Part shown: positions 2,576 through 50,382 of the stretch, in pieces
How the letters are laid out: each line of letters opens with the position of its first letter
Numbering within the stretch: position 1 is the first letter of the stretch
Source of the DNA: Thelephora terrestris
Taxonomy: Eukaryota; Basidiomycota; Agaricomycetes; Thelephorales; Thelephoraceae
Assembly (NCBI GenBank): GCA_015956445.1
Contig: WIUZ02000003.1
Span: forward strand, 1,798,001 to 1,862,000
DNA length: 64,000 nucleotides
Direction: 5' to 3'
Program-made: the position numbers and the translations under genes
Notes under the pieces: model-generated
What the model was told of the DNA's origin: nothing
Seen by the model: the letters and a program-made list of their open reading frames with translations, nothing else
Databases searched by the model: none

Positions 2576-2742
2576 CCGACGTAACCCTGCCTTCGTCGTC
2601 GTCTGGCCGGAGGTGTCAAGGAGGTGGCGGAGGCTGGCGCTGGGCGGTCGGGTCGGGTATTTGAGCAAGATGTAGGAGATCAACTCAAATCCGGATCTAA
2701 CCCACCTCCTTCCCTCCACTCCTCCCCCAACCGACAAACGTT

Positions 2743-4229: not shown

Positions 4230-4801
4230 CGCTCTACCGTGAGGATTTTCAGCGTCGCTCGAATACCCACAGTCGCATTTGTAACATATTCCCAAGCATA
4301 TTGTAAAGACCAAACTATCCTGAAGGCCGGATGAATTGTCAATGCCCTGGCAACGAGGAACAGAGGTCTGCTGGCGAAGGCGACCGGACCCCTTGGAGCC
4401 CTTGATAGGCTTCGATCGAGCTCCGGCCGACAGTTCAAACCCATCGTTATTGAGTTATCGTACCGAAATTCTCGTCCTGTCCTCGAACTGCCCACTCGTC
4501 CTCAACGTTGCGTTACAAATACTGTGTCCGCGAAGCCTTGAAGGCTGTTATGTGCAGTCATGTTTCATTGTTCACCAAGTCAATAGCGGGCGTGTTGGGG
4601 ACCACCGGGGTTCTTCTCAAGCTTCTCACCAGAGCAAAGGGTCCGGGAGGTCGAAACGTTTGAAATTTGATCCTCGGCCGCACAAAGGGCGATTCACATC
4701 AGCTAGTCGCCAGAATTGGCAAACTGGGGGCGGCAATACTTGGTATTTAGGCCTGACCAGCAGGCTTTTGCCTTATTCTGCGATCTCCCATCTCCATCCT
4801 C
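4230..4801. other. Intergenic, no gene seen
   Basis: The stretch between the E1-beta stop and the P450 start shows no ORF with recognisable family features. It presumably holds the 3' end of the first gene and the promoter of the P450. Confidence 0.5.
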
Positions 4802-19920: not shown

Positions 19921-21719
19921 TTAGCACCAAGGCAGAATATCTTCTCCTCCACGCACCTCATAACTGTCGTTCATGTCCTGTACAGGCAAAGGATTGGGGT
20001 ATCTCCCATCCTCATCCACAAGCTCATACTCATACCTTGTCAAAAAAAAGGCTAAAACCAGCTTCATCTCCAGTTTAGCCGCCTTCGTCCCCGTACAAGG
20101 GTGCCGACCGGCTCCCCAACCGACGAATGGGTAGGCAGCGTCCGGGACCGGGTCGGGTCGTAGCCACCGACCAGGGTCATATTTCTCTGGTTCGGGGTAA
20201 TATTCCGGGTTCATGTTGGCGTCACTCGAAGGATACAAAAGGAAATCCCCCCGTTTGACCACCCGCCCATAGATATTAACGTCCTGACCCATGTTCCTGC
20301 GGAGGGCAATCACGGACAGAGAAATTCGTTGCGTCTCCCTAATGCAAGCATCAAGGATAGGGATTTCGTCTTCCCATGCTGAGATGGGGATGCTTTTGAG
20401 TTTTTCGTACAGCGTTGCAGAGGAAGGAGAGCCATCGAAGTGACGCGAAATCAGGTCCTGAATCTCCTCCTCGCACTTCTTTCTCCACTCTGGATGGATG
20501 ACGAGATGTATGAGCATCCAGCACGCTTTTTCGCGTGATATGAATATGTAGACGGTTTGTGGACTGTACTAGACGTTGGGACTCACAAACGACGCCCGTG
20601 TTAGAAATGGCCACGAAAAATATCCCCACGATTTCCTGCGGTGAATCAGGCTTCGCGTCATTTACGACCGTTAGAGAAACTTACCCCAACTATCCTTTCA
20701 GTCGCGTGGCCGTCAGCGATCATGATGTCGATAGCGTCACCGGTGGGCTCTGAGTGCCTCCTTTTCTCGACGTAGGCATATATCATGGCGGTCAATCTGG
20801 TGGTGGCCTCCTTTTTCTGTTTCCTAGCCGAGTTTGGGAGCCATGGTAAGAGCACGGAGGCGGGAGTATTGCCGGTATGGTGGGCCAAGAGCAGTTCTCT
20901 GATCTTCTTGAGGTCAACTTCGTTCTTCGTCAACTCGTCGCAAGTGGCTATACGAGCGTTCATGACGAAGATGAGCTTGAAAATAAATGTCACCCCAGAC
21001 ATAATAAGAACGAATCCTTCCGCGAAGGGACTCACGTCATAAATCTCAACGAATGGATCAATTCTTCCACTCTCGCCGCCGATTCCCCAGTTGTCAGCCT
21101 TGGCGATTATATCCTGCAGAAGCGTGGCGAGGACTGAGATGTAGGTGAGACCCAGACTTAAGGCCGGCAGCTCCAGAATCGCAGGTCACACTCACTGCTT
21201 TGTAAGCGGTTTTTGTTCAGGAGCTTGTTCAGCTTCTTGTTGAAGAGGGTGATGTCCTTATCCTCGGCTTCGAATTCTTTGCTGTCGGTAGAGACGGGCG
21301 ACTGGGGTCGTTCGAGTCAATAGGCCATTCGGTCGCTATGCAAACGAAACACGTACGATGCCCCCGAGGATCGTGTAACCGTGATGAAGGCTGAATCGTA
21401 CATTAGAATAAAATGACTTGCGAGCCTCCTCCCCGGTCAAAACAATGATTTTGTTGTGGTGCACGTTGAAAGAAAAGGACTTTCCCGGGTTCCGCTGCAA
21501 GTTCGACTGGATAAAGTCGTATCGCCGCTGAAAGAAGTTCCAAGCGTGGTAAAATTGGACGCCCCGCAGATTGGGGAATTCATGTTCCTGATCTTTAGAC
21601 GTCAGAGCATAACACACGGCGGCTGTCGCGAGGATAGTAGCCGCGCCAACGACGACAGCAACGAGTTGGTTGTCCCCTCCCGTGATGGATTGAAAGATAG
21701 CCGTGTTGAGGGTAGACAT
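19921..21719 (-). CDS. Cytochrome P450 (second)
   Basis: Start ATG at 21717-21719: MSTLNTAIFQSITGGDN, then a hydrophobic anchor (LVAVVVGAATILATAAVCYALTS). Downstream: FYHAWNFFQRRYDFIQ, SFSFNVHHNKIIVLTGEEARK, and the I-helix IVGIFFVAISNTGVV, which lacks the usual acidic-Thr pair. Then CWMLIHLVIHPEWRKKCEEEI, ExxR as ETQR (about 20330-20340), KYDPGRW, and the heme loop FVGWGAGRHPCTGTKAAKLEMK (about 20115-20080) with the Cys ligand. The stop is TAA at 19921-19923. Introns lie near 20520-20580, 20620-20690, 21010-21330 and elsewhere. The heme region GAGRHPCTG resembles the CYP51-like/CYP6001-like side of fungal P450s, but I did not assign a CYP number. A KDZ transposon end lies about 130 bp upstream of its ATG and may have displaced its promoter. 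Confidence 0.85.
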
Positions 21720-21852
21720 GAGCTCTGTAGTGGTGGCCAGAACGAGAAGGCCGTTATATGTGAGTGCTCGACGCGCGCGGGACGTGATGACAATTGGTCG
21801 AATAACGCGCAGTTTCCTTTTGGGGTTCAATGTTTGGGCAAGGACAAAACCG

Positions 21853-22178
21853 CCACCTCGTTCTCACGCAATTGCCGCCTCCGTAGGGGTGCTACGGTGT
21901 AAGAGGGTGCACCCTAACGAGGCAAATTCCTGATCAAGCCTCTCACCAGCGGTTTCACCGCCAAAAAACCCCATTATGGTATCCACCCTTTATCCCTTTT
22001 CGTAAAATGTTCCCGGTTACTGCAAGGTCCATAGAGCCGAACCACACGTGATACATTTTGTAGAACCACCCACAAGAACGAACCGGTGGGACTTGCCGGC
22101 CGAGAGGGATAGAGGTCCAGTGACGTAGCGCGTCAGATTCCAGTCGCGTTACAACGCGCTGAGTGGGCTATACACGCG
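21853..22178 (+). repeat. Left TIR of the KDZ element
   Basis: It begins CCACCTCGTTCTCACGC and ends near GGGCTATACACGCGT. It is the near-exact reverse complement of the right end and includes a small palindrome, GGGTGCACCC, 51 bp in. Differences from the right copy are scattered substitutions and one or two single-base indels. Confidence 0.9.
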
Positions 22179-22458
22179 TAAATACAAGATTATTGCACCG
22201 CCGCGAATTATATACGTGTAATCTCGTTTCCAAAGCCCCCCACAACAATACGCTGTGTGAATTAGTAGTGTTTTTTCCACCACGACTCGTGATCAACAAA
22301 GATCACACCGGCTTCGTGATTAGGGCAAGATATCATTTATTCATATCACAAATTCACGGTCAACACATATAACGAGTACTACAGAACGGACGATAGTAAC
22401 CGGGCACAAGAATTCTAAGAGGCGTTGTCTACGAGGTCGCCACGACGGGTCATTTCAA

Positions 22459-24337
22459 TCAATTCTCGGAGCTCCCCACAGCCAGGGAGGTTTGCGAGTG
22501 CTTGCCTTTTCGTTGTCTCTTTGGCTTCTTGGCTATGTGAGTGTTGAAAGAAAGGGGTGTAACAACCTCCTGCCAGCTCCGCTTTAACCCACTTGCATGG
22601 GAGATGTGTTGAGTTGGCTGTTCGATTGGAGGGGCCATAGTTGTCGTCGCAGTCACTTGGCATTGATTGCTTTGCGTGATCCCCATGGCGATGAGAGCTG
22701 GATCTACGTTCTGAAGTGTAGGATCAGCACGGATCATCATGGTGATCGTGTCAGGGTTTGGTGGCGATAAGGATGGAACGGCTATCGGCGCCGGCGCAGA
22801 GGCAAGGTTGGTGATGGGTGCCAATGGTGCACTTGCAAGGGTGTGAGAAGGGGGAGTTGGACCGAGGGCCAAACGGTCTTGACAAGGCAGTTCGGAGATC
22901 AGCATCATCTCGGTTGAGGATTGTGGTAACGCGAGTGCGGGAACAAGCTCTGCGGGAGGAGGAGGCATCAGTTCCATGGCAGAGGCGAACCGGTTGCTCT
23001 TCCATTCTTTCATTTCTTCTCCCGTAAGCCGTTGAAAACGAGTTGCTCCAGATTTCCACGAATTATACAGTGTATTGAGTTCGATGCTAGAGGTAACGCC
23101 GCTGGGGTTGCAGAACTTCTTGAGCGGCCAATTCTTCACGACGACATCGTATTTCTCAGTGATGAGATCATCGAACCGGTCGTATTCCATGCGCGTGATT
23201 CTGGCCCCAGTAACAGTTCCTGGGGTGACGTGTTCATCAGAAGTCCTTGGGCAAACTGCAAGTCGAGATACACCTACGTAGTTGTTCAAGAATCAACGAC
23301 GTCGTCTTCTTCTTGATCTCGAGTATTCTGTTCTTGGAATTCATAGCGACACCTGCAAGAGAAGATCAGGTCGGATCGTGAACCCGGCGGAGGCTGGGGC
23401 AATGATACCTTTGAGCCCAGTTATCACATAGGCCTCCATCTGAACTGCGAAGTCATCGATTGACCGGCCGAACGAGTCGGCAATGAATCCCTTCACGACG
23501 TCGGATGAGTAATATATGAACGGCTTCATGAAGTCTGTAGTCTTGGACCGGGAGGCGATGAGAAAGAACTCGAATCCAGTTCTCGCATGTAGTTGGGATA
23601 ACTGTGGGAGTTCCATGAGAACGAGTGATCTGTGATTGATGATCTAATAACGTGCGTGCTGCTTACCTCTTTTTCAACAGATTGCAATGTGCCCCTTGCA
23701 TCGTAGAATGCCCTGAGTGGGACGTTGTGCGTTCCGAGGCTCTTGGCTTCCCGTTCTTCCTTGATCTCCTCAACACACCCGGCGGTGACGCGAATGCGGT
23801 CCTCTTTGGATAGCGACTGCCAACGCGCACTAATCTCCTTTGTCACCGCCGTAAGGTTCACCACACCAGGGTTTTCTTCTGAAGACAAATCAGCTTAAGG
23901 TGCGTTGTTCTCGATGATTGTGCAACCCGCAAACCTTTTATACGCCTCAGTTCCAACTTCTGGAATGCGTTCCATCTACTGACCCCCCGTGTAGACCGTG
24001 ATTTGTGTGCTCGGTGGACAAGCTCGTTGTAATAGTGGTCCACACTATACTTGCCGAAGCGCTCCTTCAGTCCTTGAGCAAGTGCCTGGATCTTGCCCTG
24101 GGCCTCTCGGAGCGCGTCGCGGTAGTCGCGACGGTGTTGCTCGCGTTTTCTTGCCTGGAGGAGTCTGTCGCCAGCAGTGAAAACGCGCTTGCCTTGCGCA
24201 CGCCGTTGGAATCTCTGGCGCCATAGTGTGAACGGTTTGTTTGTGGCCAACCTAGGGGCTCTCTTGGATACCACCCGCGTTTTTGATATCGTGCTGGAGT
24301 CGGGGTCCAATCCTGGCTGTGGTGAGGGCGGAGCCAT
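22459..24337 (-). CDS. KDZ-associated HMG-box-like protein
   Basis: Accessory protein of the transposon; its role is unknown, and DNA binding is inferred. The start ATG is at 24335-24337 (MAPPSPQPGLDPD). A basic helical N-terminal part follows (LWRQRFQRRAQGKR; QARKREQHRRDYRDALREAQ). An HMG-like segment is split by an intron: SRGVSRWNAFQKLELRRIK, then NPGVVNLTAVTKEISARWQSLSKEDRI (24000-23800). Next come HNVPLRAFYDARGTLQSVEKE, LHARTGFEFFLIASRS, DDFAVQMEAYVITGLKG (23660-23380), and after another intron EKYDVVVKNWPLKKFCNPSGV. A long Pro/Ala-rich tail ends in the basic KKPKRQRKGKHS, a likely nuclear localisation signal. TAG/TAA-type stop at 22459. This arrangement recurs in basidiomycete KDZ elements as I remember them. 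Confidence 0.72.
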
Positions 24338-24633
24338 GGCAGTGTGGGCTGGGAGGAGGGTAAGCAGTCGGCGAAGGTGTCTTCTCCCTCATTTCGTGTC
24401 ACCAGATATATGTTGGTAGGCTCTTAGCAACAGGCATGTTTTACTTCAATTAGAAGTCAATATCCTTATTGCATGTTCCTCGTCGTCTACTAACCGACCC
24501 CTCTTTAGACAAGAAACTTCTTGGTTTGGGGTCGTTTCTGTCTCGCAGACAGGCATATGCACGTGTAGTGATACCAAGAAATATGTGACGTAAATTTCAA
24601 AGAAATGGAGATACATTTTGTTGAGTACAAAAA

Positions 24634-25791
24634 TTATTCGAGGGCCCAGAACCACTCCAACTCGACAATCGCCATCCCACACCCTTCAGCACGTGCAATA
24701 AACTCATCAATAGTGGGTGCATCAAAGGCTGAGACAATCTTTGAGATCTCCACGACCCCATAGCCGTGAGCGTCGAGATACATAGCACGGGTGTGACCTA
24801 GGACGCTGTGGTCCTCCGCCGTGATATGCGAGAGCACGCCCGATCTATCGGTGATCGTCCCAACGGTTCCTGCAATATTTCGGATAAACTTGTAGATGGG
24901 TCTCGCAGGAGCGCCCCGACTCTGAACTGTGAATGATGGCGGCGGTCGAAACGTAGGGTTCCGTCCTTCTTTTCGAAGGTGCGGGCTCTTGGAAGATGAG
25001 CCGAGGTTGCTGGAGCGCGTGGTACCTGATTACGATCAGCAACAGTCACCCTAGGTAAGAAGTTCCAACATACCGTAGAACTGTGTGGTCTTTCCCCCAC
25101 AAGCCGAGGTCGGGGGCGACATCCTTAGCTCCTCTGCCGTGGCAATCAGTGTTTGTGAAATTGAACATCATTTAAAATACCTACGTTCACTGAGAATTGA
25201 TAACGAGGATACAGTGAGGTGATCGAGGTCGGTTGTGACGGATGACAGCGAAGGGGATGGAGCTTTTATCTCAGGAAGCATAGATTTCTCCCCTTTGAGG
25301 GCCATGACCAATAACACGTCTTCGAATGTGTCCGTCTTGCGCCATGATGGATATAGGTGGTCTCGAGTCTGTAGGTCAACGAGACTTAGGGTGTGTCAGT
25401 ACACCACTTGCAAGAGAGTAGAGGGGACAAACTCTGCCGAGAATGATAAACCCCTGAAGCTACGGCCATTGAGGATTGCGAACCACGGGGTGACGTCACT
25501 CATGATAGACAAGCAATCAAGAGTTCGGTAAATCGCGCGTGCCAACTTTTTCTCATTTGAGAACCGAGCGCAGAGCTCCACAAGTGGAGCGTGGATCCTG
25601 CGAACGTCTTCGACGTCCTCGAGCGACCGGCACTGGATGTACAGTGGCAACAGACTCGCCCCCTTTCCTATGGTCTGAAGCATGGGTCTAGTGGAACAGC
25701 GGTTAACCCAGGGCAAGACAGAAGATAACTTTACTCACGGTGAAGCCTGATCTATCGTCTCCACCTGCGTTTCGCGGAGGACTGCCCACAT
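24634..25791 (-). CDS. Unrecognised spliced gene inside the KDZ element
   Basis: Start ATG at 25789-25791: MWAVLRETQVETIDQASP, then an intron with GTGAGT donor. The main exon reads MLQTIGKGASLLPLYIQCRSLEDVEDVRRIHAPLV... (about 25690-25410), then RDHLYPSWRKTDTFEDVLLVMALKGEKSM, a Ser-rich stretch, a short exon with RMSPPTSACGGKTTQFY, and a last exon with PIYKFIRNIAGTVGTITDRSGVLSHITAEDHSVLGHTRAMYLDAHGYGVVEISKIV ending in WFWALE and a stop at 24634. Five exons are inferred. I recognise no domain. The C-terminal exon has the alternating pattern of a small alpha/beta fold, but that is only an impression. Position and strand make it either a third KDZ accessory gene or captured cargo. Confidence 0.6.
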
Positions 25792-26982
25792 GCTTGCTGT
25801 GGTGGTGGTAGTTAGCAAAGAGGAGAGGGGAGAAAAGCGGGTGGAACGATTCTTTTTATTGTTGGCGACGTACTCCGGGATGTTGCGGTGTAGAATAGGC
25901 AAACCCGATTCCACAATGGGGAAGATGGGGTGGAAAAGCCACGACATCACCAATAGTGCACCTCAGCTAGTTCGAGGGCAGAGGGTGATGTTTAGGCATA
26001 GTAATTATCAGAGCGGTGGCGATCTTCGGTTGGCTAGTAAGCGAGGAATGGAGATCTGGGTACTTCTGGGTATATCTCCAGAGGTGATTATCAATCGCTG
26101 ATATGAACGCGCGCGGTGGACAACATAGTTGGTGTAGATAGCTAACATTAAATATGATATATGACGAACGACTATCTGTAAGATTCTAACGTCTATTGTG
26201 GGCGAACGAATGTCCAAGTTCTTGTTGGAATCCTATCTGTTGTGTTGGGTACCGCGGGTGTCAGTGACACTTCACATATCACGAACGAGTCGATTGCTGC
26301 ACTACGGCTGTTTTATTCAAGAGCGAGTTCCACATTACTGGCGTTGGGAAACTCTGCAACAATGCCTACATCAACCCCGCCACGCATTGGTGGAACCTGG
26401 ACAGTACATTATCTGGCTAAAATGGTGTATGGCGTATATCTAGATAGCGGCAAGTAGATCTTTTTGACGAAATGATTTTAAAGCAGATATGTCTACTTCA
26501 AACCGGATACATCTGTTTCGAATCAGATACGTATATTTGTCACCTTACATATATTCATCTAACATAGAATACAATTCTCTCCTCGCATTATATAGCATGT
26601 AAGATATAGGGTATATATTGAAGCGACTCACAGATTATCGAGACGCTTAATTTCACTTTGCTGGTTGCTCAGACTCGCCGATCGAAAACACCAATCAATG
26701 ATCTTCAGCTTCATATAAAGGCACGACACTAATTATCAAATCCTCAGACCTCTCGTGGCATGCCACTTGTGCTTACTCAAGATAGAGTTGGTGTGTAGGC
26801 TTGCTTTTAGCCGTATCTATGATATCATGCATATCGAGGGTGCTCATGTTAACGTTTGTCCGATACGAGACATCTCCCAAGTTATTGAACCTCAGACATT
26901 AAAGCATTCATTCTCTTGTAATATCGGGCTCAATGTCTCAATTATACGGTTCACGGACAAGATTTTGGACTGAATGTATCAC
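25792..26982. other. Gene-free stretch inside the KDZ element
   Basis: About 1.2 kb between the unrecognised gene and the end of the transposase gene. It is AT-richer than its surroundings. Near 26465-26540 two or three degenerate repeats of a GATACRTMTRTTTCRAA-like unit occur. No ORF with recognisable features was found. Confidence 0.4.
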
Positions 26983-29900
26983 CTACAAACTTGTAACGAA
27001 ATCTAGAATACTGTTGATTTGATCATGCTCGACGTCGTCTGCGTCTTCTCCCTCTGCCTCGTCGTCATCTACGTGGTCGTGCCTACCCAGTTCTCCATCC
27101 TCTCGAACAACTTGACAACCCTTCCTGTGCCCTAATGTTCTGTCACCAGTGAATCCATTGAGGTTGAAGACCTGCTGGATCTGGGCCAGGAGTAGAGCGT
27201 TCACATGTGCGCGGCGAGTAGAATGTTGCTTCACGGCTCCGAAGATGGGACTATTCTGTCTGGCGAGTTCCTCCAGGGTGGCGTGTTGTCGACGAGTTTC
27301 ATCATAGATGGACGTGAAGAGACGGCGAACCTCGACGTTGCACCGCTCGATCTCTTCACGTGCACGGCGAACACGAAAGAACTTTTTGATGGTTTCGCGA
27401 ATGACTGGATCGGCCCACGGTGCTTTGGTGATGTCACGTCGGGTGTTGCGCAAAAGACTGAACTCCTCCAAGAAGCTGTATCGTGAGACCTGCGCCCAGT
27501 CGAGCGGTGGGCGAGGGGGGTTGAGAGCCTGTGCGGCACGATTATAAGCCTCCGTTGCGCTGCGAATTGCCTTGCACCGCGTTTGCAAGGACTTTGCGAG
27601 ATGTGTACGGGCTTTGTAACCTGACCTGATCTCAGCCCAAGAAGATATAGAGAAGGTAAACGACCAACCAACGCCACTCAAGTTGAGTCTGTGTAGCTCA
27701 AATAATCGTTGTGTCACAAGACGTTGGAGGTTGTTGAGGGCTTGGTGGTACCGTCGTTCAGAGATGTAGCGAACCGTCTCGACATACTCCGGGGTGACTG
27801 GAGTCCAGCGATTGTCGATTCCCATGTGATCTTCGAGCTCGAGAACCTGGTGGAGGACCCTGTCGTATCGTTCACGCGCATAGCGTCGCTCGGTTTCCAG
27901 ACGGCGTGTTTTCGAGAGGTCGGATGTGTATGTCGATGACTTTGCCAAGGCCTGACTAGGAAGACTGAAATGATAATCGGTGGGAATGGCGTTGAGGAAC
28001 CGCGTCAACGAAGCATCAGCCTGGGACCTATGGGATATCAGCAACAACCGTCGACTTATGTAATTAAGACTTACTCAGTGGAATTGAGCTCCTGAAGGAG
28101 CTCGACGTACGCCATTGCATGGATATCCCACGGCGACTCTTCACCAACGGTCTCAAAGAATGAAACCTGTTCGCGATGCCAAGTCTCAAGATCAGTCGAC
28201 GAAATCCCCAACGCATGCATAGCTTCCTCAACAGCAGTCCCTTCGTCCTCGATAATAGACAGTGCCTGCCGGTAGTTGTTGAACAGCATTGAAGCCAGGT
28301 TCCGGTACTTGTCATCGTCCCACTGTTGGAAGAACATATCAATGAATACGCGGCGGTGGTAGGCTGATGCGTATCGAGTAACACCGGCAACTTGATTGGA
28401 TGAGCTGAAAATCCGTTCCATTGTCTCGAGATCCTCGATCCCCACTCCGTCAATGATGTTGGGGTGGTTTTGAGTTTGGCAGGCAAAATTGTGGGAGTAT
28501 CCGTGAAACGCGTTGACGCAACAGCGAGACTTTGACTCGGCAAACTGGGCTCCAAGTGTACTTGAAGAAATCGTCTTCTGGAAGACACAACCGATGTCAT
28601 ATCCAATCAATAGGCGAGGGCCAAGGGTGCGTAGAGCCCTAGCTGTCACCGCGAGTGGATACTTGGCCCTAGTTAAAGATAAGACAATAGTGAGACGCCG
28701 TCGATCAATCAATATTAAAACTTACTGTTCGCCACTCCGGATCATATCCGTAATCCATAAGATAAAGCCGTGACGGCAGGCACTCGCAAAGAGGCCAGTT
28801 TCTGCAAATATACCCCACACCCGCTTCTTCGAGTCCGATTGTGCGGCCTTCCAATTGTTGGCACAAGGACCAGGGTCAGCGCCACCATTTGTGCCCCGTT
28901 CCGTGATGTCGCCTTCAATATTGTCCTCGTCGTCACTGGCCGCATCTGCTGAAAGTGCTGATCCGGCGTCCCTTGCCCATTCATTCACCTCTTCAGCTGG
29001 AATGTAATAGTCACTGTCAATAAAGCACCGTGTGTCACCAACGTCTCGAGAACCAATTCTCGCGATTCTCTTCAAGGAGTCATTGCCGTCAAGAGCAAAC
29101 ATCCGCCGAAATAGAAGGTCGGGCTCATCTTCCAACTGCAAAAGATTAACCGTGCGTCAGAGTGATATGCAAGCAGGCACATACCTCGTAGGAGCATGCA
29201 GGGCAGGCATTCAGTACCCGCCAGTTGGGACCATCATGGCCGAGGGCTACCTTGACACGCTTGTCAACGACCCTGATGACTTCTAGATATGCGTCAAATG
29301 CATTCGAAAACCAGCGGCGGTATTTGGGGCGATATGGCACCTATCACGGAATGAGTGTAAGCGACATATGACGGACAAAATGCATACCATATAAAGGTCA
29401 GACACAACCTTGACAAACGCTTCAACGCTAAACGATGGTTTTCGCCGACGTAGTACTCGATAAAGTTCGAGTGTCTTGATGGATACTGCAACTGAGGGAC
29501 GGAACGGTGCATTCCCAATGAATCCGAGACCAGCGAGTGTCGATGCGGTGGTTTGATCCCCTGCACAGGAAACTTTGACTGACGTTGATAAGGTGTAGAG
29601 ATCGATGACGAGGATCTCAACCTCGGCTGTTGTTGTGAAGTCATTCGTTGGGAGCGAGGATTGTGAAGGAGGGAGTGGATCCTTGGTTTCGCTCGGATTT
29701 AACAGGGATTTGTTCGGGTCGAGGTCGTCCGGATACTTCCAACGAAGGTAGGCGTCTGCCATACTGTCAATGAGGGGTTCCCAGCTCTGGTGGAGGTTAT
29801 CGAGGCGGTGCCTCCAAGTCCGCTCATCGCGCCGGAATCTAGTGCTGGACAGAAAGTCAGCGGAGTAGCGCACATGCACGGTAGAACTTGCAATGGGCGC

Positions 29901-30280
29901 AGCGATTCTTGAAGCTCCTCAACAAATGCTTCATCTCCTTTGGTACAATCTCGTAGGTGTTCCACGTCAATCGCATCGGACACGTCGTCATCTTGATCAG
30001 GGCTATCAGCGGGCAGGTTGCCTTCAAGGTCCGCCATCGCTTTTTTCTCGCTCGGAGTAAGCACTGGTCGTAGTCAGTGTCCGAACTGTTACGGTTCGGC
30101 AGGATACGTACTTGAGATCTGCTCAAGGTGCCTCCTTTCGCTCCATGCTCGCTCAGCAGCCATATCAGCCATACCGTGTCGTACAGATGGCCCATTGCTA
30201 ATGAACCTTGATCCCGATGGCTGCGAAGTGTACACCGCACGCGAAATCGTATAAGACCTCTTCACCACATACCTGGGCAT
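26983..30280 (-). CDS. KDZ transposase
   Basis: RNase H-fold DD(E) transposase that mobilises the element. The start was taken at ATG 30278-30280; the first exon edge is uncertain. The N-terminal part is acidic (EGNLPADSPDQDDDVSDAID). Zone 29880-29280 holds FRRDERTWRHRLDNLHQSWEPLIDSMADAYLRWK and a weak CxC-type region (VLNACPACSYE). The transposase core has FRRMFALDGNDSLKR (first Asp about 29090), SDYYIPAEEVN, and RLLIGYDIGCVFQKTI (second Asp about 28598). Then CCVNAFHGYSHNFACQ, ETMERIFSSSNQVAGVTRYASAYHRRVFIDMFFQQWD, and LETWHREQVSFFE. The long helical C-terminal exon (28024-26983) has repeated ERRYARERYDRV-type coiled helices and ends with an acidic tail. Seven or more introns of 50-60 nt keep the frame. 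No internal stop was seen in the core. Confidence 0.88.
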
Positions 30281-30617
30281 AGTGGGGACGAGAGGGAAAG
30301 AGCGACGTGTCAAAGCGTGTCAAAATGGGAGGGGTTAGGTGTGAGAAAACACGCGATCGATGCAAGGCGCCATCATCACATGGCACAGCGAGCACAGATG
30401 CTCATGCAAGCAGTGCTTTCGATTCCTTTCCGTTGGTAATACGTAGGAACTGTCTGAGTGCATGAGAAAAAGACGAGGGCCTACAAAACAAAACACCCGA
30501 GGGGATTTCAGTGCCGAATACGAGGCAAATGGTTTGTGAACTTTGTGGGGGGCTTTAGATCATATGTATATTAATCTAAGATGCTAGCGAAGCAAAATAA
30601 TGCATAATCTAATGAAT

Positions 30618-30943
30618 ACGCGTGTATAGCCCACTCAGTGCGTTGTAACGCGACTGGAATCTGACGCGCTACGTCACCGACCTCTATCCCTCTCGGCCGG
30701 CAAGTCCCACTGGTTCGTTCTTGCGGGTGATTCCAGAGAATGTGTCACGTGTGGTTCGGCTCTATGGACCTTGCAGTAACTGGGAACATTTTACAAAAAA
30801 GGATAAAAGGTGGATACCATAATGGGGGTTTTTGGCGGTGAAACCGCTGGTGGGAGGCTTGATCGGGAATTTGCCTCGTTAGGGTGCACCCTCTTACACC
30901 GTAGCACCCCTACGGAGGCGGCAATTGCGTGAGAACGAGGTGG
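30618..30943 (-). repeat. Right TIR of the KDZ element
   Basis: Reverse complement of the left TIR. On the plus strand it runs from ACGCGTGTATAGCCCAC to GCGTGAGAACGAGGTGG. Beyond 30943 the sequence no longer matches the left flank. Confidence 0.9.
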
Positions 30944-31081
30944 GAAGGGAAGTTACTCGGACATCAGAGAAACCGTATTTGGAATGTACGGCTAGTTCGA
31001 TAAATTCCAAGAAATTACCCTTCCCTGCACAGACTGCCAGCAGTGTGGGTAATCTACCGGAGGTGTGAGGAACGGCCCTCA

Positions 31082-31089
31082 TGACGTGG
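31082..31089 (+). promoter_or_regulatory. TGACGTGG motif upstream of cis-prenyltransferase copy A
   Basis: TGACGTGG inside ATGACGTGGACAAC, 86 bp before the ATG. The same octamer or a one-base variant stands at the same distance before copies B and C. It resembles bZIP (CRE / unfolded-protein-response) sites; function is inferred. Confidence 0.4.
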
Positions 31090-31167
31090 ACAACAACCCT
31101 TGCAGCGCGCCATACATAACGGAGAAGTGGCCTTGGCACCGCCTCCCGATACTTTTATCTCTGCTGA

Positions 31168-32408
31168 ATGCTGTACTCTACCTATAACTCGGCGTCATCG
31201 ACGTTTCTCGGATCGTGGCTGATCAAGGTGCTCGCCGCTGGCCCAGTGCCTCAACATATCGCTTTCGTCATGGACGGGAACAGGCGGTACGCGAGGCAAC
31301 GGAATATGGCGGTCAAGGAGGGACATACGAGTGGATTCTACGCGCTCCAGAAGGTTCGTGCGCCATCTGTTCTGGTATACTTTGGGCTTCTCACGTGTTC
31401 TGTGCGGGTGGGGAGATAGGTAGTGAATATATGTTTTACGTTGGGCGTGGAATGTGTCACGGTGTTTGCGTTTTCGATTGAGAACTTCAAGAGGAGCGAG
31501 GAAGAGGTGGCGGCGTTGATGGAGCTCGCGGGGGCTTGCCTGTTGGAACTCACGAAACATGGGTACTTTCAGTTAACCACTACCCGTCTATCTTCGTGGC
31601 TGACGCATGTGTGGTTCCAGAGAACTCCTGGATCGGCATGGCGTGAGGCTGAACGTGTTAGGTAGAATCGAGATGTTGCCGGAGAACATACAGAAGAGTG
31701 TGCGTGATGCCCAGGAGATGACCAAGAACAATAACAAGTAAGTGATCCCGTGTCTTTCATTTCTTTGTCTGATGAGGAGTTCCCTTGAAGGTCTATCTTT
31801 AATCTTTGCATGCCTTACACCTCAAGGGATGAGATAACTACGGCAGTGCAACTTGCAGTTCGGGAGAAGGTGGCAAGTGGTCTGGGCGACGCAGAGCATC
31901 CGTTTGTGCCCTTGTGCTCGTCATCGTTTCATCCTGTTGACGATCGAGCGTGCTAGAATCACTGAGAGAGATATCGAGAGGTACATGATGACGACCCTTG
32001 GCGGTTCTCCTCCCCTCGATATCTTGATACGGTCGAGTGGTGTGAAACGACTCAGCGACTTTCTGATGTGGCAGGTATGTTCTAATTTCACGAGAAGCAG
32101 AGAACGTCCGTAGCGTGGCTCACAAATTGGTTGTAGGCTTCGGAGAACGTTCAGATTCATTTTGCTCCGACGCACTGGCCAGATTTTGGGTTTTGGGACT
32201 TGCTACCCGCAATCCTAGATTATCAGGCAAAAGCATGGAATCGGCAAGGAGACAGCCGGGGACCCAGGCGGTTGATGAGCTTCGGAATTGAGTGTGGTAT
32301 GTGCTTGGGTTGTGACGATTGGGTAATAAATTCGCTGAAAATCATTTACCAGTGGTGCTAGTAGTGACCGTAACCTTGCTCGCCTCGTTCACGCGGCTGC
32401 GAACCTAG
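31168..32408 (+). CDS. cis-prenyltransferase (dehydrodolichyl diphosphate synthase type), copy A
   Basis: Rer2/DHDDS-type enzyme that condenses isopentenyl diphosphate in cis onto farnesyl diphosphate to make the dolichol precursor at the ER. Exon 1 (31168-31353) starts MLYSTYNSASSTF and carries the catalytic block [20 protein letters not shown] (the Asp of MDGNRR). Exon 2 (from 31420) gives [23 protein letters not shown], then after an intron [19 protein letters not shown], then [19 protein letters not shown] 43-44 nt intron leads to [41 protein letters not shown], then HWPDFGFWDLLPAILDYQ. After a final intron the C-terminus is a short hydrophobic tail (VVLVVTVTLLASFTRLRT), TAG at 32406-32408. 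No RxG motif occurs at the end, as expected for the subunit that pairs with Nus1/NgBR. Confidence 0.85.
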
Positions 32409-33479
32409 CGGTGGCTTCCGTCCCTCATATACACTTGAAGAGAGCTGCTTACCGAGACCTCGACAGGACCCTACTGGTCGTGTGAGACCACTCCGGGAGG
32501 ATTAATCGCTAGTAACGTGCGATGGAAGAATGACTCTACCATGCATCAACGAGATCCTGGTTGGGTGATCAGTGTTGCTGTCGTAAATGAGTCCACGTTC
32601 GGTGACACTGCGCAGGAGTGATTGATTGAGTTTTTGCAAGTTGCGGATACATAACGGGCTTTCTGTCCTTCGAGGCTTGTCGGATAACACAGGCCCATCA
32701 GTGCTGGGGGTATCGGCCGACCCGAAATTTTTGTAGACGCAGGAAAGACGACCTCTAGAGGGGCCTCAAATATTTCACCAACTCTTTTGATGAGGGTCTG
32801 GAAGAGAACGCGGGAGTTGCGCCGTAAACAGAACGGAGGTCTCCGCTCCGCTCGGCGCTCGGCGATGTAATTTATCGGCCCGGGGCCCCGGCGGAACGGT
32901 TCCCCACCCGGAACGCGGATGTAGCCGAGTTCCGAATGGAAGTCCGTTACCGACTTCTTGAATCTTCTACCATCGCCACCACCACCGCTGCATCAGAAGG
33001 TTGTTGTCTACGGACATGCCAAAGGAACGTTCGGGTTTCTGGGCATCTTGTGATGGACCTCCTTACACCCACTCCGAAATTATGCGGCTTAGAGCCATGG
33101 GCGTCCGGTGCTGAAGAACTTTTATCGCAGCGCACACTGTCTCCGGCCCCCCCGCAAATTCAACCCACCGCTAATAGCGGAAAGTCAACAAAAGATTATG
33201 TGCTACAGTACTCTCTGGGGAAACAGCTTTTCCTGACATAAACAATTGTCACTGGGTGCACTGCTGGGGGAGGGCATTCTCTCGGAGACCATCGAAGCCG
33301 TGTTTTGAATGATTATAGGGAAGGGGTGTCTATCGGAAATCATGGAAACCATACTTTGTATGTGGTTTCGATAACTTTCGGGCAGCCACTCTTCCATGCT
33401 ATGACGTGGACAACAATTTAGTCGCGCAGCATACATAATGGAGAGGTGACCATCCCATCGATGCCTTTATCCCTGTTGA
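32409..33479. repeat. Duplicated downstream flank of cis-prenyltransferase copy A
   Basis: Segments at about 32510-32660, 32745-32850 and 32905-33040 align in order with 36380-36510, 36600-36700 and 36925-37055 behind copy C. Examples are TTCGGTGACRCTGCGC, CGTTACCGAYTT and TCTACGGACAYGCCA. It looks non-coding. Copy B has no such flank, so it was lost there or copy B arose from a shorter unit. Confidence 0.65.
33402..33409 (+). promoter_or_regulatory. TGACGTGG motif upstream of cis-prenyltransferase copy B
   Basis: TGACGTGG followed by ACAAC, 78 bp before the ATG at 33480, in the same context as in copy A. Confidence 0.4.
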
Positions 33480-34717
33480 ATGGCCGACCTCTTGAACTCC
33501 GCCTACGATTTGGTGCTGTCGACATTTCGATGGGGAGTGATAAAAGTACTTGCCATCGGTCCAGTGCCTCAACATATCGCTTTCATCATGGACGGGAATA
33601 GGCGATACGCAAGGCAACGAAGTATGGCGATAAAGGAGGGTCATACGAACGGGTTCCAGGCGCTTGAGAAGGTTCGCATGTCATCCCTTCTGGACGCTTT
33701 GGCTTCTCACGTGCTCTGTGGGATGCGAGATAGGTGGTGGATGTATGCTTAAAGTTGGGGGTGAAATGTGTCACAGTGTTCGCATTCTCGATTGAAAACT
33801 TCAAGAGGAGCGAGGAAGAGGTGGCGGCGTTGATGGAGCTCGCAGAAACTAAGCTGTTGGATTTCACGAAGTATGGTCATTTTTAGTTGGCCACGAGTGA
33901 TTTGTTGCTGACGTATGCGTGGTCTCAGAGCTACGCTGCATCGGGATGGCGTGAGGGTGAATGTGTTGGGCAGGATGGAGATGTTGCCGGAAAGCGTGCA
34001 AAAAAGTTTCCGTATCTCCCAGGAGATGACTAAGGACAATTTCAAGTAGGACCTCCCCTATTTTTCATCTCTTTTCGTCGAATTCTGATGACGAATCTCC
34101 TTGAAGGCATGTTCTTAATTTCTGCATGCCTTACACCTCACAGGACGAGATTACTACGGCAGTACAGTCAGCCGTCCAGGAGAAGGTGGTGAGCGGTCTG
34201 AACGACTTAGTGCATTCGTTCGCGCTCCTTATCCTCGTCACGGTTTTCTCACGTTGACGATTCAGTGCGCTAGGGTCACCGAAGGAGATATCGAAAGGTA
34301 TCTGATGACGACCCTTGGCGGCTCTCCTCCTCTCAATATCTTAATACGGTCGGGCGGGGCGAAACGGCTCAGTGACTTTCTGATGTGGCAGGTATGGTCT
34401 AATCTCACGAGGAGCAGAGACCGTCCCGTGGCTCATCGATTCTTTGTAGGCTTCGGAGAATGTTCAGCTGCATTTTATTCCGACATATTGGCCAGACATT
34501 GGGTTTTGGGACTTGTTCCCGATTATTATGGATTATCAAACGAAAGTGTGGAGTCGGCAAGAGGGTAAATGTGGATCCAAGCGATGGGCGAGCGTCGGAT
34601 TCGAGTGTGGTACGTGCCAGCGCCACGACGCTTGGTGAATTTGCTGAAAACCATTTACCAGTGGCGCTGATAGTAATTGTAACTTTGTTCGCCTCGCTCA
34701 CGCGGTGGCGGATCTAG
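33480..34717 (+). CDS. cis-prenyltransferase, copy B
   Basis: Start ATG 33480, [24 protein letters not shown], then [31 protein letters not shown]. After an intron: [41 protein letters not shown]; then [100 protein letters not shown], and the tail [18 protein letters not shown] (TAG 34715-34717). This is the most diverged copy: LDILIRSSG reads LNILIRSGG (the Asp of the family's DILIRxSG is Asn), one intron donor appears to be GC, and the exon 2/3 junction needs a different acceptor. It may have reduced activity or be on its way to loss; no definite stop interrupts it. Confidence 0.75.
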
Positions 34718-34857
34718 GAGTGGATTTGGCTCCCCCAAATTTCTTGGAGCGTTATCAGGAGTTTCTTACTTTGTCAAAATCACTTTCTCTTCGACCTTGT
34801 GCCAGCAGGTGCCGGCCCGTTGAATCGTGGGAACTCGATTGATCGGAATAGTCCCGA

Positions 34858-34865
34858 CGACGTGG
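34858..34865 (+). promoter_or_regulatory. CGACGTGG motif upstream of cis-prenyltransferase copy C
   Basis: One-base variant of the octamer before copies A and B, in the same GACGTGGACAA context, 71 bp before the ATG at 34936. Confidence 0.35.
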
Positions 34866-34935
34866 ACAAGTACCCGATCTGGCTGCGCGACATGATGCGA
34901 GAAGCGGTTACCCCTCGACTTTTCTTCTTCGTTAA

Positions 34936-36172
34936 ATGGCCGACCTTTTGAACTCTGCCTACGATTCGGTGTCTTCGACATTCAGACGAGGGCTGATCAA
35001 AGTACTTGCTGCTGGCCCAGTGCCCCAACATGTTGCATTCGTCATGGACGGGAATAGGCGGTACGCAAGACAACGGAACATGGCGATAAAGGAGGGACAT
35101 ACGAATGGGTTCTACGCGCTTCAGCAGGTTCGCACATTCTACATTCAGGCTACTTTGTTTCTCATGTGTTCGGCGCGGTGAGGTAGATTCTGGAAATATG
35201 TTTATTGCTGGGAGTGAAATGCGTCACGGTGTTTGCTTTCTCTATCGAGAACTTCAAGAGGAGCGAGGAAGAAGTGGGTGCGTTGATGGAGCTCGCGGAG
35301 ACTAAGCTGTTGGAGCTCACGAAGCATGGGTACTTTCGGTTACCAACACGTTTCTTCTTGTGGCTGACATGTATGAGGCTATAGAGAAATGCTGGATCAG
35401 CATGGCGTGAGGCTGAACGTGTTAGGTAGGATTGAGATGTTACCGGAGAACGTGCAGAAGAGTGTTCGTGTTGCCCAGGAGGTGACAAAGAACAACAGCA
35501 AGTGGGCCATCCCGTGTCTTTCAACTCTTTTGTCTGATTCTGATGACGAGTTTTCTTGAAGGTCTATCCTTAACCTCTGCATGCCTTACACATCTCGGGA
35601 CGAGATTACTACGGCAGTTGAATTAGCCATTCAAGAGAAGGTGGCAAGCAGCCTGGACGGGACAGAGCATCCGTTCGTGCCCTCGCTCTCACCACTGCCT
35701 TCCAATGTTGACGATTGAGTGTGCTAGAATCACTGAGGCAGATATCGAGAGGTACATGATGACGACCCTTGGTGGTTCTCCTCCCCTCGATATCCTGATA
35801 CGGTCGAGTGGAGTGAAACGCCTGAGCGACTTTTTGATGTGGCAGGTAAGCTCTGATATCCCGAGTACTCCATGTCATCCCGTAGCTCATGACTTCTTTG
35901 TAGGCTTCGGAGAACGTACAGCTTCATTTCACTCCGACATATTGGCCGGATATTGGGTTTTGGGACTTGCTACCCGTTATCCTGGATTATCAAGTGAAAG
36001 TGTGGACTCAGCAAGGGGGCGGTTGGGGCTCCGACCGGTGGGTGAGCCTCGGGATCGAGTGCGGTATGTGCCGGGGATATGATGATTGACCGATATCTTG
36101 GCTAAAAATCACCTAGTGGCGCTCGTGGTAACTGTGACCTTGTTCGCCTCGCTCGCCCGGCTGCGAACCTAG
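34936..36172 (+). CDS. cis-prenyltransferase, copy C
   Basis: The best-preserved copy. Exon 1 (34936-35127) reads [48 protein letters not shown]. Exon 2 (35187-35329) reads [30 protein letters not shown]. Exon 3 (35385-35501) reads [26 protein letters not shown]. Then [27 protein letters not shown], a 43-nt intron with GTGCCC donor, and [41 protein letters not shown]. The last parts are [34 protein letters not shown] and, after a final intron, the hydrophobic tail [18 protein letters not shown] with TAG at 36170-36172. All catalytic blocks of the DHDDS family are intact, so this is the copy I would expect to be functional. Same strand and exon plan as A and B. Confidence 0.88.
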
Positions 36173-38009
36173 CTTGGCTTCAGTCTCTTCTGTGGATCAA
36201 GCTTTCCAATGACGTTATCTTCTACGGTTCGAATTCTTGGTGCACAATACGCAACCCATAATTCTCCGACTGCCCTCCGCAATACATACTCCTGATAATG
36301 CAAAAAAGGCGCTCATTGAGATTTCGCATCACCACCGACAGGATCTTACTGGTCGCACGCAACGACGAGAGGATCGAGTAATCCGCCATGGGAGAATGAC
36401 TCTGCCGCGTGCTGCTTGGCGAGAACTCGGCTGGGTGGCTCTGTCGTAAAGGGGTCCGCGTTCGGTGACGCTGCGCGAGAGTGATCGATTCAGTCTTCGC
36501 TGGTTGTGGATAATCTTTCTGTGCGCTGGGGTTCATTGAATGACTTTCAACAGGGACATCAGCGCTGAGGGTGGGTACGGATCGCTCCCAAACTTCTAGT
36601 GGACGTAAAAGAGGTGATTTTCAGAGGGACCCCAAATATTGATTCTACAGATTTTTCCGGCACGATGCAGGAGAACGCGGCTTGTGCCGTAAACACACCG
36701 AACGCTCCATTCTACACGAGATGATGGCAGATCAGGGATTCGCGATTCGGACATTGGGTTACCTGAGCAGTCACCTACGTCAACCCGAGGCTGGAATCCA
36801 GCCTCGGGTTCAGATGCGTGGTGGACGCGGTTCAAGGCGGCGATGCCTCTAGAATTATCGGCTCAGCGTACTCCTCAACGAACAAGAAACGAGATCTCCT
36901 ACAGGTGGACACCGTAAGTTGATAGGCACATTCTGCACCCGGGATGTCAAAGTAGCTGAGTTCAGAATTCACGCTCGTTACCGATTTTCTTCCTTCACTC
37001 CCGCCACTACGTCTGCTCCGGAAGGCCGTCTTCTACGGACACGCCAGAGTAAGGTTCGGTGGTGAGAAATTTCTTCAACGCAACTCTAGCCCCCCCGCAA
37101 TAATCTTCAACCTGTCGCTGATGGTGGGATACCCCTATCCCCTTTAGCGAGGAAAGCCTGCTGCGAACGGCATCGCGTCCGGAACTCAAGTTCAATGTGT
37201 AGTACTTTTCTGTCTATCGATGGGCAGTCCTCGAAATGGGCGGAAACCACGCCCCCCGAAATTGCGCGGGGGAAGGTGAGTTGGTCGTTACGTGGGCACG
37301 GGCAGGCATTGGGGGAGGGGGGTGAATATTGAATGGCGATAAGTGATTGCCCGACCCCCTGCCTCACCCTCGCTCGCCGTATCGGGTAAATGTTCCGTCC
37401 TATTGGAGGCCCCGCCTGTATTCAATTGTTTTAAGGACGATGTTTCTCCCAAAGTCCACTTCCGCCCGTGCATGATACGCCTCAGGGGCATTCCGTAACA
37501 TATCTGGAACGCGTTAGCCAACGCCTTCCCTGCATCAAGAGTCAACATAGGACCTGTGCTGAGTGCTCGCGAGTCGGTTTCCCTGGTTCATCCTCCCCCT
37601 TGCCGCTTGTCACATCAGGGTCCATGTGTCACGCGGGCTCCGCTTCGGTTCAACCCCAGAGCATGGCTCGACACTCCAAAGCATTTGGGAACCCTGAGTG
37701 CCCTGATGCAATGCATTCCATGAAAAGATTCTGGCTGCCGTGGATGCCAAGGCGTGGAGTGGAAATGAAAAAAAAAAACGCTGGTTCCAAGTGCCCGAAA
37801 GTGGTAACACCGGATTCCAGCCCCCGCTTGAATGGAAATGGTAGGTATTGAATGTCTTGACTCGCGCTTGGCTCGTGGGAGCCCAACCCCTTGATGAGGG
37901 GCTTCAGTTGCCAACCCGCAGAGATATTATTGGTCGGCTAGCCAGAGAGGAAACACAGGATAAAACGGACAACAGTGGCCCGAAAACTTTACCTTTGCCT
38001 TCACCAACG
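36173..38009. other. Duplicated flank of copy C, then a gene-free stretch
   Basis: 36380-37055 repeats the flank behind copy A. At 36783-36803 lies a near-perfect palindrome, GAGGCTGGAATCCAGCCTC, that recurs at 53346. 37300-37325 is G-rich. The 127-codon frame at 37468-37851 is open but Cys/Ser/Pro-scattered, without family features and with a run of A near 37767. I do not call it a gene. Confidence 0.5.
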
Positions 38010-42552: not shown

Positions 42553-43201
42553 TTATTCATATTCAGGGTCCAGGCGTCATCCTGGGATACTTTTTGCTAC
42601 CCTGTGGCTGCTTGTTGATTGGAACGCCATTCAAATGCCTTCTGGTGAATCCCGAAATAACCCCACCCGGTCCCACCTCTCCGTGAAGACGCTTCGCCGT
42701 GACTGAATGTCGCACTAGTACTTGCATCAATCAACCTCACGATCACCTATGGTCTCTAGCACTTATCACTTGTTTCGTTTGACACCTGTCGCTTTCAGTC
42801 CTTATCGGGTACCCATTCTGAGCGCAGCACCCTAGCTTGCAAATAAGCAACACTTTTCGCCACTTCGTCACTTATTTGAGTAAAATCGATGCTGACTGAC
42901 GCTGTAGCAGCTACCAAAGGTAATCTCCGAATCGAATACACTACGATAGTGTCAGGCGTTTCCTCCCGGTGCTGAGCGCTGAGGGATTGCGCGCTCCGAA
43001 TGAACAAGCATCGTCTTAGACTGCTACACCAAACAAAAAAGATATATGATAAACTAGTGACTACATAATTGCAAAATGATACATGACGAGGCGCTGTAAA
43101 GGGTCACAATTGGGACCCTTAACCCCCAGACGTGGACGCGCCTGGAGAACTCTTGAGATGGATGGCCAGCGACGCAGAAAGCGCGAGAGGCCTGTCCTGA
43201 T
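42553..43201. other. Convergent intergenic stretch, no supported gene
   Basis: 3' ends of the AP-2 mu gene (+) and the second DUF6533 gene (-) face each other here. Nothing else recognised. Confidence 0.45.
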
Positions 43202-44987
43202 TCAAGCTGTCCCCGAGACGCTAGGTTCATCCAAGCTTTTGGTGGTCTCCAGCCCGATTTCCTCATAAGCATCTGTCGTGACCTGGTCCGACTCCCCCCT
43301 CCTCGGCATCCTGAACCTACTTCTGGCCTGACTCTCATCAACCCAGTGCCGCGTGTGATCGCCAGTTTCTTCTTGCGCAAACTGCATTTCGTTCGGGCGA
43401 TGAACGGTCGTCATTTCCGAAAACGACCAACCGTCCTCGACCGTCGCGGCCTTTTTGAGGGAAAGCATCAGGCGTGCGATCATGATCGGAAGGAAGACGT
43501 CGTTCCCGACTGCGGGAAGGAGCTGGAGAGTGGGCTACGGAAAAGGGGGGTGTGAGGAACAGAGGTAGATCAGATTAGACGGAGTTCCTACCCGTTCAAA
43601 GATCAGGGTTGATAGGAAAATTAGGTGTGATGTGAAGATGACGAAGAAGTAGATGGTGGCGTCGTGTACGATCGTGTGGACTAAACTTGGCCTTGATGAA
43701 GACACCGAGCTGGAGCCTAAGCCGGTTCTAAGACCAGAACTGAATATGACAAAGAAAGCTGCTGAATCTGAAGCTGCGTGAGGCGCTATCGCGTGGAAGC
43801 GTAGACGGGCTTACCGAAGAAGAGGGAGATGGAGGTATACCCGATTTCGATGGGGCGGTGCCTTGCGAATACGCAAAGTCGGAAAGCATCCAGCGGGATC
43901 GGGGGAAGTACGACCGCTGTTGTCAGCAATCGCCGAGGACCGAAAATGCGCATTCGAAAGCGGTAGTGTAGGGTCAGAATTAGACGATGATGCGGATGCG
44001 TTCATAGAATCAGATCACCGATCGCGGAGAAAAGGGACATGAAGTTTGTTTCTCAGCGCCTCGTAAAGATGCAGGGTAGCAAAGAATACCCACCAGGGTT
44101 TGTTGCGCCAAGATAAGTAAGGTATATGCCAAGTGCCAGTTGAGGTATGGTCACTCCCGAAAAGAATGCCACTATCATCTTGTTCTTCATCGTCAAGGCG
44201 TATATCCTGGAAACCACGCAAATAAATCATCGACGGCGGGGGAAAAAACGCGTGAAATGACCTCATGGTTAGGAAGATCTGAGCCAGTAATGTGAGGAAG
44301 ACGAAGATTGCGATTTCAATCCACGCGGTGTTATTACACCTGAACGAGGTGGAAGGGATGAGGGTCACGAGGCGATGAACGAAGGGGAAATGAAAGTGCG
44401 CACATCTATTGTTGCGAAAGGCCATAAATTGGGTGAACGCTTAGACTCGTTTGACACGAATACACACCTCGTAGGTAAAGCCGGGCCACCAGACGACAAC
44501 GACTATCCAGGTTTCGTACAGGATTGGGACGTATCTGTTCTAAGGAGCCCCCGTGGCGGTCAGCGCGGGATCATGTGAAAAACAGCTTCAATGGATTTAC
44601 CACCAGGAAGATATAGAAAACTGAGCAATCCTCGGTAAGTCGACGAAGAGGGACCATCAGGTGTTGGGCTTACTCCATGGTTTCCTTCCTTTCCACGCAT
44701 ACCGGATCTACAAACATCAGCTGGTCGTTGGCATTGCAACCAGATTAGAACACACCTCGTCTGGAAGCGTCAGGAAGTAGTCGTAGAACAACAAGGTCAC
44801 TCCAGCAGCAGCGTAATACTTGATATTATCTCAACGGCTGTACGAAACGTTCGACCGTACCACAAACCTTGATGGACAGGCTGTTGGGGTAAAATCAACC
44901 AAAAGTTCACAGGAGTTCGTGTGAATGTAGGACGCACATGTCATACCCAGCATCGATCAGGGTTTGTAGGGCCGCGGCTGATGACAT
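43202..44987 (-). CDS. DUF6533 family integral membrane protein (copy 2)
   Basis: Start ATG at 44985-44987, MSSAAALQTLIDAGYDM. The DUF6533 hallmark KYYAAAGVTLLFYDYFLTLPDE (about 44840-44775) is followed across an intron by IRYAWKGRKPW. Downstream hydrophobic exons: RCNNTAWIEIAIFVFLTLLAQIFLTMR (44340-44260), SWRNKPWWVFFATLHLYEALRNKL (about 44100-44030), HTIVHDATIYFFVIFTSHLIFLSTLIFER (43680-43590), then IMIARLMLSLKKAATVEDGWSFSEM with a charged tail ending at 43202. It follows the same domain order as the copy at 14.9 kb but is clearly diverged, so the two are not a recent duplication. Exon edges between 44780 and 44400 are uncertain. Function unknown. Confidence 0.72.
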
Positions 44988-45692
44988 TACGCCAGGATGC
45001 ACAAGCGCAGTGTGACAAAGCGTGAGGGGTGCTGGTGGACCATCGGGATCCTGCAGGCTCGGAGTTTTGTATGCGGGGATGGGCGCTAGAATGCTCGGAT
45101 GAGACCCAGTCGGCGGAAAAGAGTTTTTGCAAAAACGCCAGAGCCGACTGTAATTGGAATAGTAACGAACGCCACTACTTACAATCAGATCTTTGTTGGC
45201 GAGGCCAATCGAACGCCAGTGTAATCAAAACTGGCCTCTTTGATCAAGGTCGACCCTGGCACGTTGCGACATAACTCCAAGGTCGGCAGCCCTCAAAACA
45301 AAACCAGATCTGATCTTGTTGGTGTGGATTTTCGGACGATAGAAGGAGATATGATGGCCCAAACCGCCATCAATAGCAAATCAGGAGGGCGTGCGCATAA
45401 ACGTTGAGCCATTTTTCCGATATAGAACCGGTGGCGGATTTTTTTGGGATGATTCAACAACGAAGTCGATCAGACTGAAGAGTGAACACAAAGGACTTTG
45501 ACAAGGTAGCCGTCCACTGTGGACAGTCTGAATTCGCCTCCGTAACGCTTTCGTTAAAGAACGCGGCAGGCATTCGGAGAAACCTTTGGGAAGCTTTAGA
45601 TACGATAGGCTCCGGTTTACCCCTGAGACTGTACCTGGTCGTACCCGCGTGGCTCCTGCTGCCATGGCCACTCGCTACGGCAGCATCTCCTT

Positions 45693-49884: not shown

Positions 49885-50089
49885 CGAGGACTTGTTCTTG
49901 TTCTGCTTGTTGTGCCCGTCCGTTTTGGTTTTTATTTATCGATTTCTTCGTTTGCTTACATTCATTTGAGAGTCTGGAGACATCCGTTCTCCCTCTTTCT
50001 GTGGTCAACAACCCTTCATCTCCTCGTGTGAATCATTTCGATCGTTCTTGCTTGCCAGCATTGAAATACCTCGAAGACCGAAATATGTG

Positions 50090-50370
50090 GTCACTGAGCG
50101 GGGCAGAAAGTACTCTCACTCGCGTTCGCGGTTAAGAATGCAGACTCTGTGACACGTTGGAACTGACGCATGAGAACTCATGGAGGCCACGATACTAGCT
50201 TTTGGGCCGTTTTAGAGGCAAAAAAATCATGGCAGGTACCGAATGGTAACTGGGATTACGACATGCCAAATGGAGCACGAGAAAAAAAACAAGAATATAT
50301 TGTAGGAATGTACTAGGCAAAAAAAGGAGTTGAGAGGGCGATGGATTGAAAACGAAAACGGCGTGATTGA
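50090..50370. repeat. FunK1 downstream flank, repeated at 53.72-54.06 kb
   Basis: Aligns with about 53725-54060 through GTACTCTC, GCAGACTCTGTGACAC, GACGCATGAG, GGGATTACGACAT and AACAAGAATATATTGTA. With the coding similarity this shows that copies A and B of the kinase arose as one tandem unit including the 3' flank. Confidence 0.75.
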
Positions 50371-50382
50371 GCTACAAGCAAT

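Follow-up and report, generated by a model that had tools for sequence, protein, structure and literature searches.

The founding paper of the KDZ transposons is reportedly that of Iyer et al. 2014. Three KDZ elements of Cryptococcus neoformans are mobile in the laboratory according to the accessible part of their description (PMC12810828): KDZ1 (~11 kb, 241-bp terminal inverted repeats (TIRs), 8-bp target-site duplications (TSDs)), KDZ2 (9.2 kb, 139-bp TIRs), and KDZ3 (10 kb, 169-bp TIRs), the latter two with TSDs of 4 to 8 bp. A previous sequence-only reading of the locus studied here held that complete KDZ copies are rarely described individually, which is only partly true, as KDZ1–KDZ3 were published with size, TIR, and TSD. 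Kojima 2025 (PMC12730594), in the sections available, gives 8-bp TSDs for Zisupton and describes two TET+ Kyakuja families from Laccaria with 7-bp TSDs and no TIRs.

Rearrangements bounded by transposons have been described for other superfamilies. In the available part of the work on Galileo (PMC2775673), exchanged TSDs were taken as a sign of ectopic recombination, and the chimerism of the copies decided for recombination; according to its authors, a hybrid-element model differs only in giving identical instead of chimeric copies. For maize, the part of the literature drawn on here (PMC8225341) states that recombination results in copies with non-identical TSDs, and that reversed-ends transposition results in a new TSD.

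Here we describe a KDZ element, copy A, from the window, that is, the whole 64-kb stretch of Thelephora terrestris DNA that was analyzed (C23:1798001-1862000; the assembly has 60 contigs totaling 40.6 Mb). The element is a new member of a known transposon superfamily, with an informative rearrangement.

RESULTS

Ends and superfamily of copy A

In a self-BLAST of the window, 21853-22193 aligned inversely to 30943-30604 (93.5% across 341 columns, E 1e-145), and within the element the TIR alignment covers positions 1-340 versus 1-339. The estimate of the sequence-only reading, ~326 bp and ~95% by eye, was close to these TIRs (340/339 bp, 93.5%). Its location for the element (21853..30943) was right, but each end was set one base too far out, because the second copy described below (copy B) matches 21854-30942 only. 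A terminal 13-mer marks the ends, beginning at 21854 on one strand and at 30942 on the other. This 13-mer is common to both ends of all four other related two-ended elements (Table 1); it had 21 exact matches, 16 of which are ends of copies A and B and the related elements described here, compared to two matches with a reversed-pattern control.

Copy A belongs to the KDZ superfamily by domain, TIRs, and TSD: it encodes a KDZ transposase domain (PF18758), its TIRs have a defined end, and its 8-bp TSDs appear only after pairing with copy B, where 8/8 positions agree twice. It does not fit the TET/JBP-carrying KDZ elements, as none of its three proteins had a Tet_JBP match. A Tet_JBP search of the whole assembly also returned no match, but the control was silent as well, and this search is hence uninformative on absence from the genome. 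With 340-bp TIRs and an 8-bp TSD, copy A also does not fit the pattern given for the two Laccaria families of Kyakuja (7-bp TSD, no TIRs). The proposal of a complete KDZ transposon with long TIRs and three genes was borne out by the self-BLAST, the PF18758 match, and protein-level conservation. Judged from its sequence, copy A appears to be an intact and probably autonomous KDZ cut-and-paste DNA transposon.

Table 1. Positions of copy A, its parts, and related elements (plain numbers are window positions; C-prefixed positions refer to assembly contigs)
Feature	Position	Length	Strand	Remark
KDZ element copy A	21854-30942	9,089 bp	- (strand of its genes)	Identity to copy B starts and stops exactly here, one difference
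Left TIR of copy A	21854..22193	340 bp	.	93.5% to right TIR, 21 mismatches and one gap
Right TIR of copy A	30604..30942	339 bp	.	Carries the sole A/B difference, 30788
A-left 8-mer	21846..21853		.	AAAACCGC, half of one TSD; partner GCGGTTTT (reverse complement) left of copy B
A-right 8-mer	30943..30950		.	GGAAGGGA, half of second TSD; partner TCCCTTCC right of copy B
Transposase gene	26983..30280		-	Hand-made model, 7 exons, 1,002 aa
Gene 2	24634..25683		-	Hand-made model, 4 exons, 300 aa; start and splice sites uncertain
Gene 3	22459..24337		-	Hand-made model, 5 exons, 547 aa; HMG box just below Pfam cut-off
KDZ element copy B	C23:1777982-1787070	9,089 bp	Opposite to copy A
Broken copy	C16:491873-495975
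Related two-ended element	C23:2047104-2056569	9,466 bp
Related two-ended element	C12:3371730-3386285	14,556 bp
Related two-ended element	C12:1777704-1788256	10,553 bp
Related two-ended element	C34:2480973-2491515	10,543 bp

A near-identical inverted copy and further relatives

Copy B lies 32,783 bp from copy A and differs from it at one of 9,089 bases, located in the right TIR. The identity of the two copies stops exactly at the element ends, so a segmental duplication was rejected as their origin. Together, A and B were the only complete copies of their subfamily found in the assembly, and copy A, with its near-identical second copy, is on sequence well placed as a candidate for a KDZ family with recent activity.

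On C16 there is a third copy, which is broken. It retains element positions 1-3751 and 4079-4428, including the left end; no further match was found in 5.9 kb past the break. When other copies were checked for ends lying elsewhere, as the sequence-only reading had advised, both copy B and the sole surviving C16 end stopped at the same base. The C16 copy differs from copy A at 61 of 4,101 compared sites, three of them transversions. Relative to A, 36 of its 43 C-to-T or G-to-A changes are at CpG, where CpG positions make up 516 of the 4,101, and 7 of the 15 changes in the opposite direction would create a CpG in the C16 copy. This pattern suggests the look of methylated-CpG decay.

One-ended relatives were present on C15, C56, and C59. 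Across the assembly, 125 KDZ domain matches were found, many of them split by exon.

Target-site duplications exchanged between copies A and B

A local TSD was rejected for both copies, since the 8-mers flanking copy A agree at 3/8 positions, as do those flanking copy B. The earlier observation that no local TSD is visible at copy A was thus correct. However, comparison between copies, each time as reverse complement, showed that A-left matches B-left at 8/8 positions and A-right matches B-right at 8/8, whereas the two remaining pairings agree at 1/8 each. The flanks therefore have the order X[B]Y' - 32.8 kb - X'[A]Y. For two exact 8-mers at fixed positions, the chance is ~2e-10, assuming equal base use. 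Flipping the segment between the copies yields GCGGTTTT[B]GCGGTTTT and GGAAGGGA[A]GGAAGGGA, and all four other two-ended relatives have perfect 8-bp TSDs of their own (ATGTACCC, GATGGGGA, TTGATTAT, CCGTGAAC). At the surviving C16 end, the outer 8-mer does not recur within the 9 kb examined.

As far as the sequence tells, the apparently missing TSD of copy A is explained by exchange with the near-identical inverted copy B. The view of copy A as a well-preserved element that unexpectedly has no TSD did not hold: 8-bp TSDs are present, exchanged with copy B. Such exchanged TSDs are the mark of an inversion between A and B, real or introduced by the assembly. An element without a visible TSD need be neither wrongly delimited nor decayed, as the partner may adjoin an inverted sister copy.

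Transposase and two partner genes

The three minus-strand genes of copy A are backed by protein-level conservation with the relative at C23:2047104-2056569. Splice models were built by hand from script-proposed donors and acceptors, the choice among them being guided by reading frame and conservation with this relative; the model of gene 2 is the least certain of the three. The transposase matched PF18758 over the full profile (positions 1-217/217, E 3.3e-77, 259.5 bits versus a cut-off of 26.6), and none of 14 control genomes matched in the PF18758 search. The motifs DGND, GYDIGC, CCVNAFHGYSH, and WHREQ were found at residues 336, 479, 506, and 620 of a single reading model of 7 exons and 1,002 aa with no internal stop, which agrees with their description as uninterrupted. 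DGND and GYDIGC may hold catalytic acidic residues of the RNase H fold. One stop-to-stop exon piece of the transposase gave CxC1 (E 0.047) and CxC3 (E 0.066), both below the cut-off; for the spliced model, neither was listed at E<=5. Residues 1-330 contain four cysteines.

The gene 3 protein scored 23.9 bits for HMG box (cut-off 25.4) and 22.0 for HMG_box_2 (cut-off 22.4). In a rough join of gene 3 from C23:2047104-2056569, HMG_box_2 reached 24.7, above 22.4, and HMG_box 25.3, just below its cut-off. The first 367 aa of gene 3 returned no match in a solved-structure search, and no Pfam entry matched the 300-aa gene 2 protein with E<=5.

DNA searches, in which locus counts are lower bounds, found the transposase at at least 9 loci (12 matches), gene 2 at at least 9 (18 matches), and gene 3 at at least 10 (42 matches). 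Among the nine gene 2 loci, the transposase is present at eight (the exception is the broken C16 copy) and gene 3 at all nine. C11 carries a transposase without the partner genes, and C10 carries gene 3 only. In A, B, and C23:2047104-2056569, the transposase is followed by gene 2 and then gene 3, with all three in the same direction, whereas at five loci (both C12 elements, C34, C15, and C56) the gene 2/gene 3 pair is reversed and points toward the transposase. From this difference in orientation we infer that the pair flipped as a block between subfamilies, a history suggested by the present arrangements. The recurring two-gene module offers a clue to the needs of KDZ elements of this lineage beyond the transposase. 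In a literature search, we did not find KDZ partner genes or a KDZ inversion; we do not claim that either is unpublished.

Surroundings of the two copies

An ORF has its first Met 135 bp downstream of the left end of copy A. This ORF seems to be the start of a cytochrome P450 gene, because a downstream ORF (19927-20568) matches PF00067 with 113.3 bits; the two ORFs nearer the left end of copy A had no P450 match. Just right of copy A, window 31081-36188 contains three tandem related stretches of ~1.2 to 1.4 kb that are 75-79% alike.

The B-left region (L068:1243-3087) has a paralogue beyond copy A, at window 43193-45113, which is 76-78% alike, while the B-right stretch (L014) had no match within the 64-kb window. 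Paralogue order was considered as an orientation test and discarded, as this B-left/B-right pattern decides nothing. The ORF from these paralogous stretches had no Pfam match. Several long repeats of up to 1.6 kb, 79-92% alike, occupy window 49239-60530.

Three of the four flanks (A-left, A-right, and B-left) were searched against the assembly; each had a single occurrence at high identity, and no second haplotype with an empty site was found with them. Rejoining the flanks in their presumed pre-inversion order neither restored nor broke a recognized gene; sites X and Y lie outside recognized genes and say nothing for or against the inversion.

DISCUSSION

Origin of the exchanged duplications

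Two insertions followed by inversion through recombination are, tentatively, the most likely single history of copies A and B. After binding to the long TIRs, the transposase would excise the element and integrate it elsewhere through a staggered cut, which would give the 8-bp duplications. Originally, one copy would have been flanked on both sides by X and the other by Y; the intervening segment of the chromosome would then have been inverted by homologous recombination of the two copies, with exchange of the inner flanks. Inverted copies with exchanged TSDs, as found in A and B, are what characterizes Galileo-type ectopic recombination. No chimerism is visible here, because A and B are all but identical (a 1-base difference). 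A real inversion would mean that 33 kb of this genome were rearranged by a KDZ element. Exactly the observed flanks are also predicted by an assembly misorientation, in which two ordinary insertions kept their own TSDs and the 32.8-kb segment between the inverted copies was placed backwards. Orientation between long inverted repeats is lost if reads fail to span the repeat, and the inverted repeats here are 9,089 bp long with one difference. However, the 2.7 Mb contig and the 60 contigs per 40.6 Mb hint at long reads, and the copies were kept apart as two sequences; we consider misorientation unlikely, while giving it real weight. If the inversion is not real, the case marks an assembly error exposed by a simple TSD check.

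It is rather improbable that the arrangement arose in one step, by an aberrant transposition in which one element, located at X, inserted into Y at a distance of 33 kb, duplicating itself and inverting the segment together. Such a step could be replicative, as in IS6-type elements, or could combine an end on one sister chromatid with an end on the other (hybrid element), and we regard these routes with the same doubt. It would leave the same X[B]Y'...X'[A]Y flanks and two identical inverted copies, requires one event instead of two, and fits A and B being the only complete subfamily copies found. In the available part of an IS6 review, intramolecular replicative transposition in trans gives the same flank arrangement (PMC7986276), and the hybrid insertion model, as far as the Galileo text presents it, gives identical, not chimeric, copies (PMC2775673). 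On the other hand, the four other complete relatives show ordinary insertions, and near-identity of A and B would result from recombination after a recent local insertion just as from one-step models. To our knowledge, no KDZ element has been shown to perform a duplicating, inverting transposition in one step; if this one did, KDZ transposition would go beyond plain cut-and-paste, with copy gain and chromosomal rearrangement achieved at once. Far less credible is reversed-ends transposition of two pre-existing copies into a third site, as in maize Ac/Ds. Element-bounded inversions are made in this way in hAT-like systems with 8-bp TSDs, according to the part of the source drawn on (PMC8225341), but only one new TSD pair is made, versus two complete exchanged pairs here, and both A and B are whole. 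Recombination, misassembly, and one-step transposition predict the same flanks, and the sequence does not separate them; the weights given to these three are judgements.

Comparison with known systems

The comparisons below draw on the available parts of the cited accounts. Cryptococcus KDZ1–3 resemble copy A in their KDZ transposase domain, similar size (~9.2 to 11 kb), TIRs, and, for KDZ1, 8-bp TSDs. Their TIRs are 139 to 241 bp, compared to the longer 340 bp in copy A, and their transposases carry a CxC1 domain, whereas that of copy A has no CxC1 above the cut-off. Copy A further differs from them in its two partner genes and in being known here from sequence alone. Zisupton shares the KDZ domain and the 8-bp TSD with copy A, and Kyakuja the KDZ domain and terminal CA...TG. 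The two TET+ Kyakuja families have 7-bp TSDs and no TIRs, whereas copy A has TIRs and no TET/JBP gene was found in it. Galileo belongs to the P superfamily and has 7-bp TSDs, in contrast to the KDZ copies A and B with 8-bp TSDs, and its inversion 2z3 in Drosophila buzzatii is known with chimeric copies and standard chromosomes, whereas A and B are known from one assembly. The two cases are nevertheless alike in that inverted copies bound the inversion and their TSDs are exchanged (PMC2775673).
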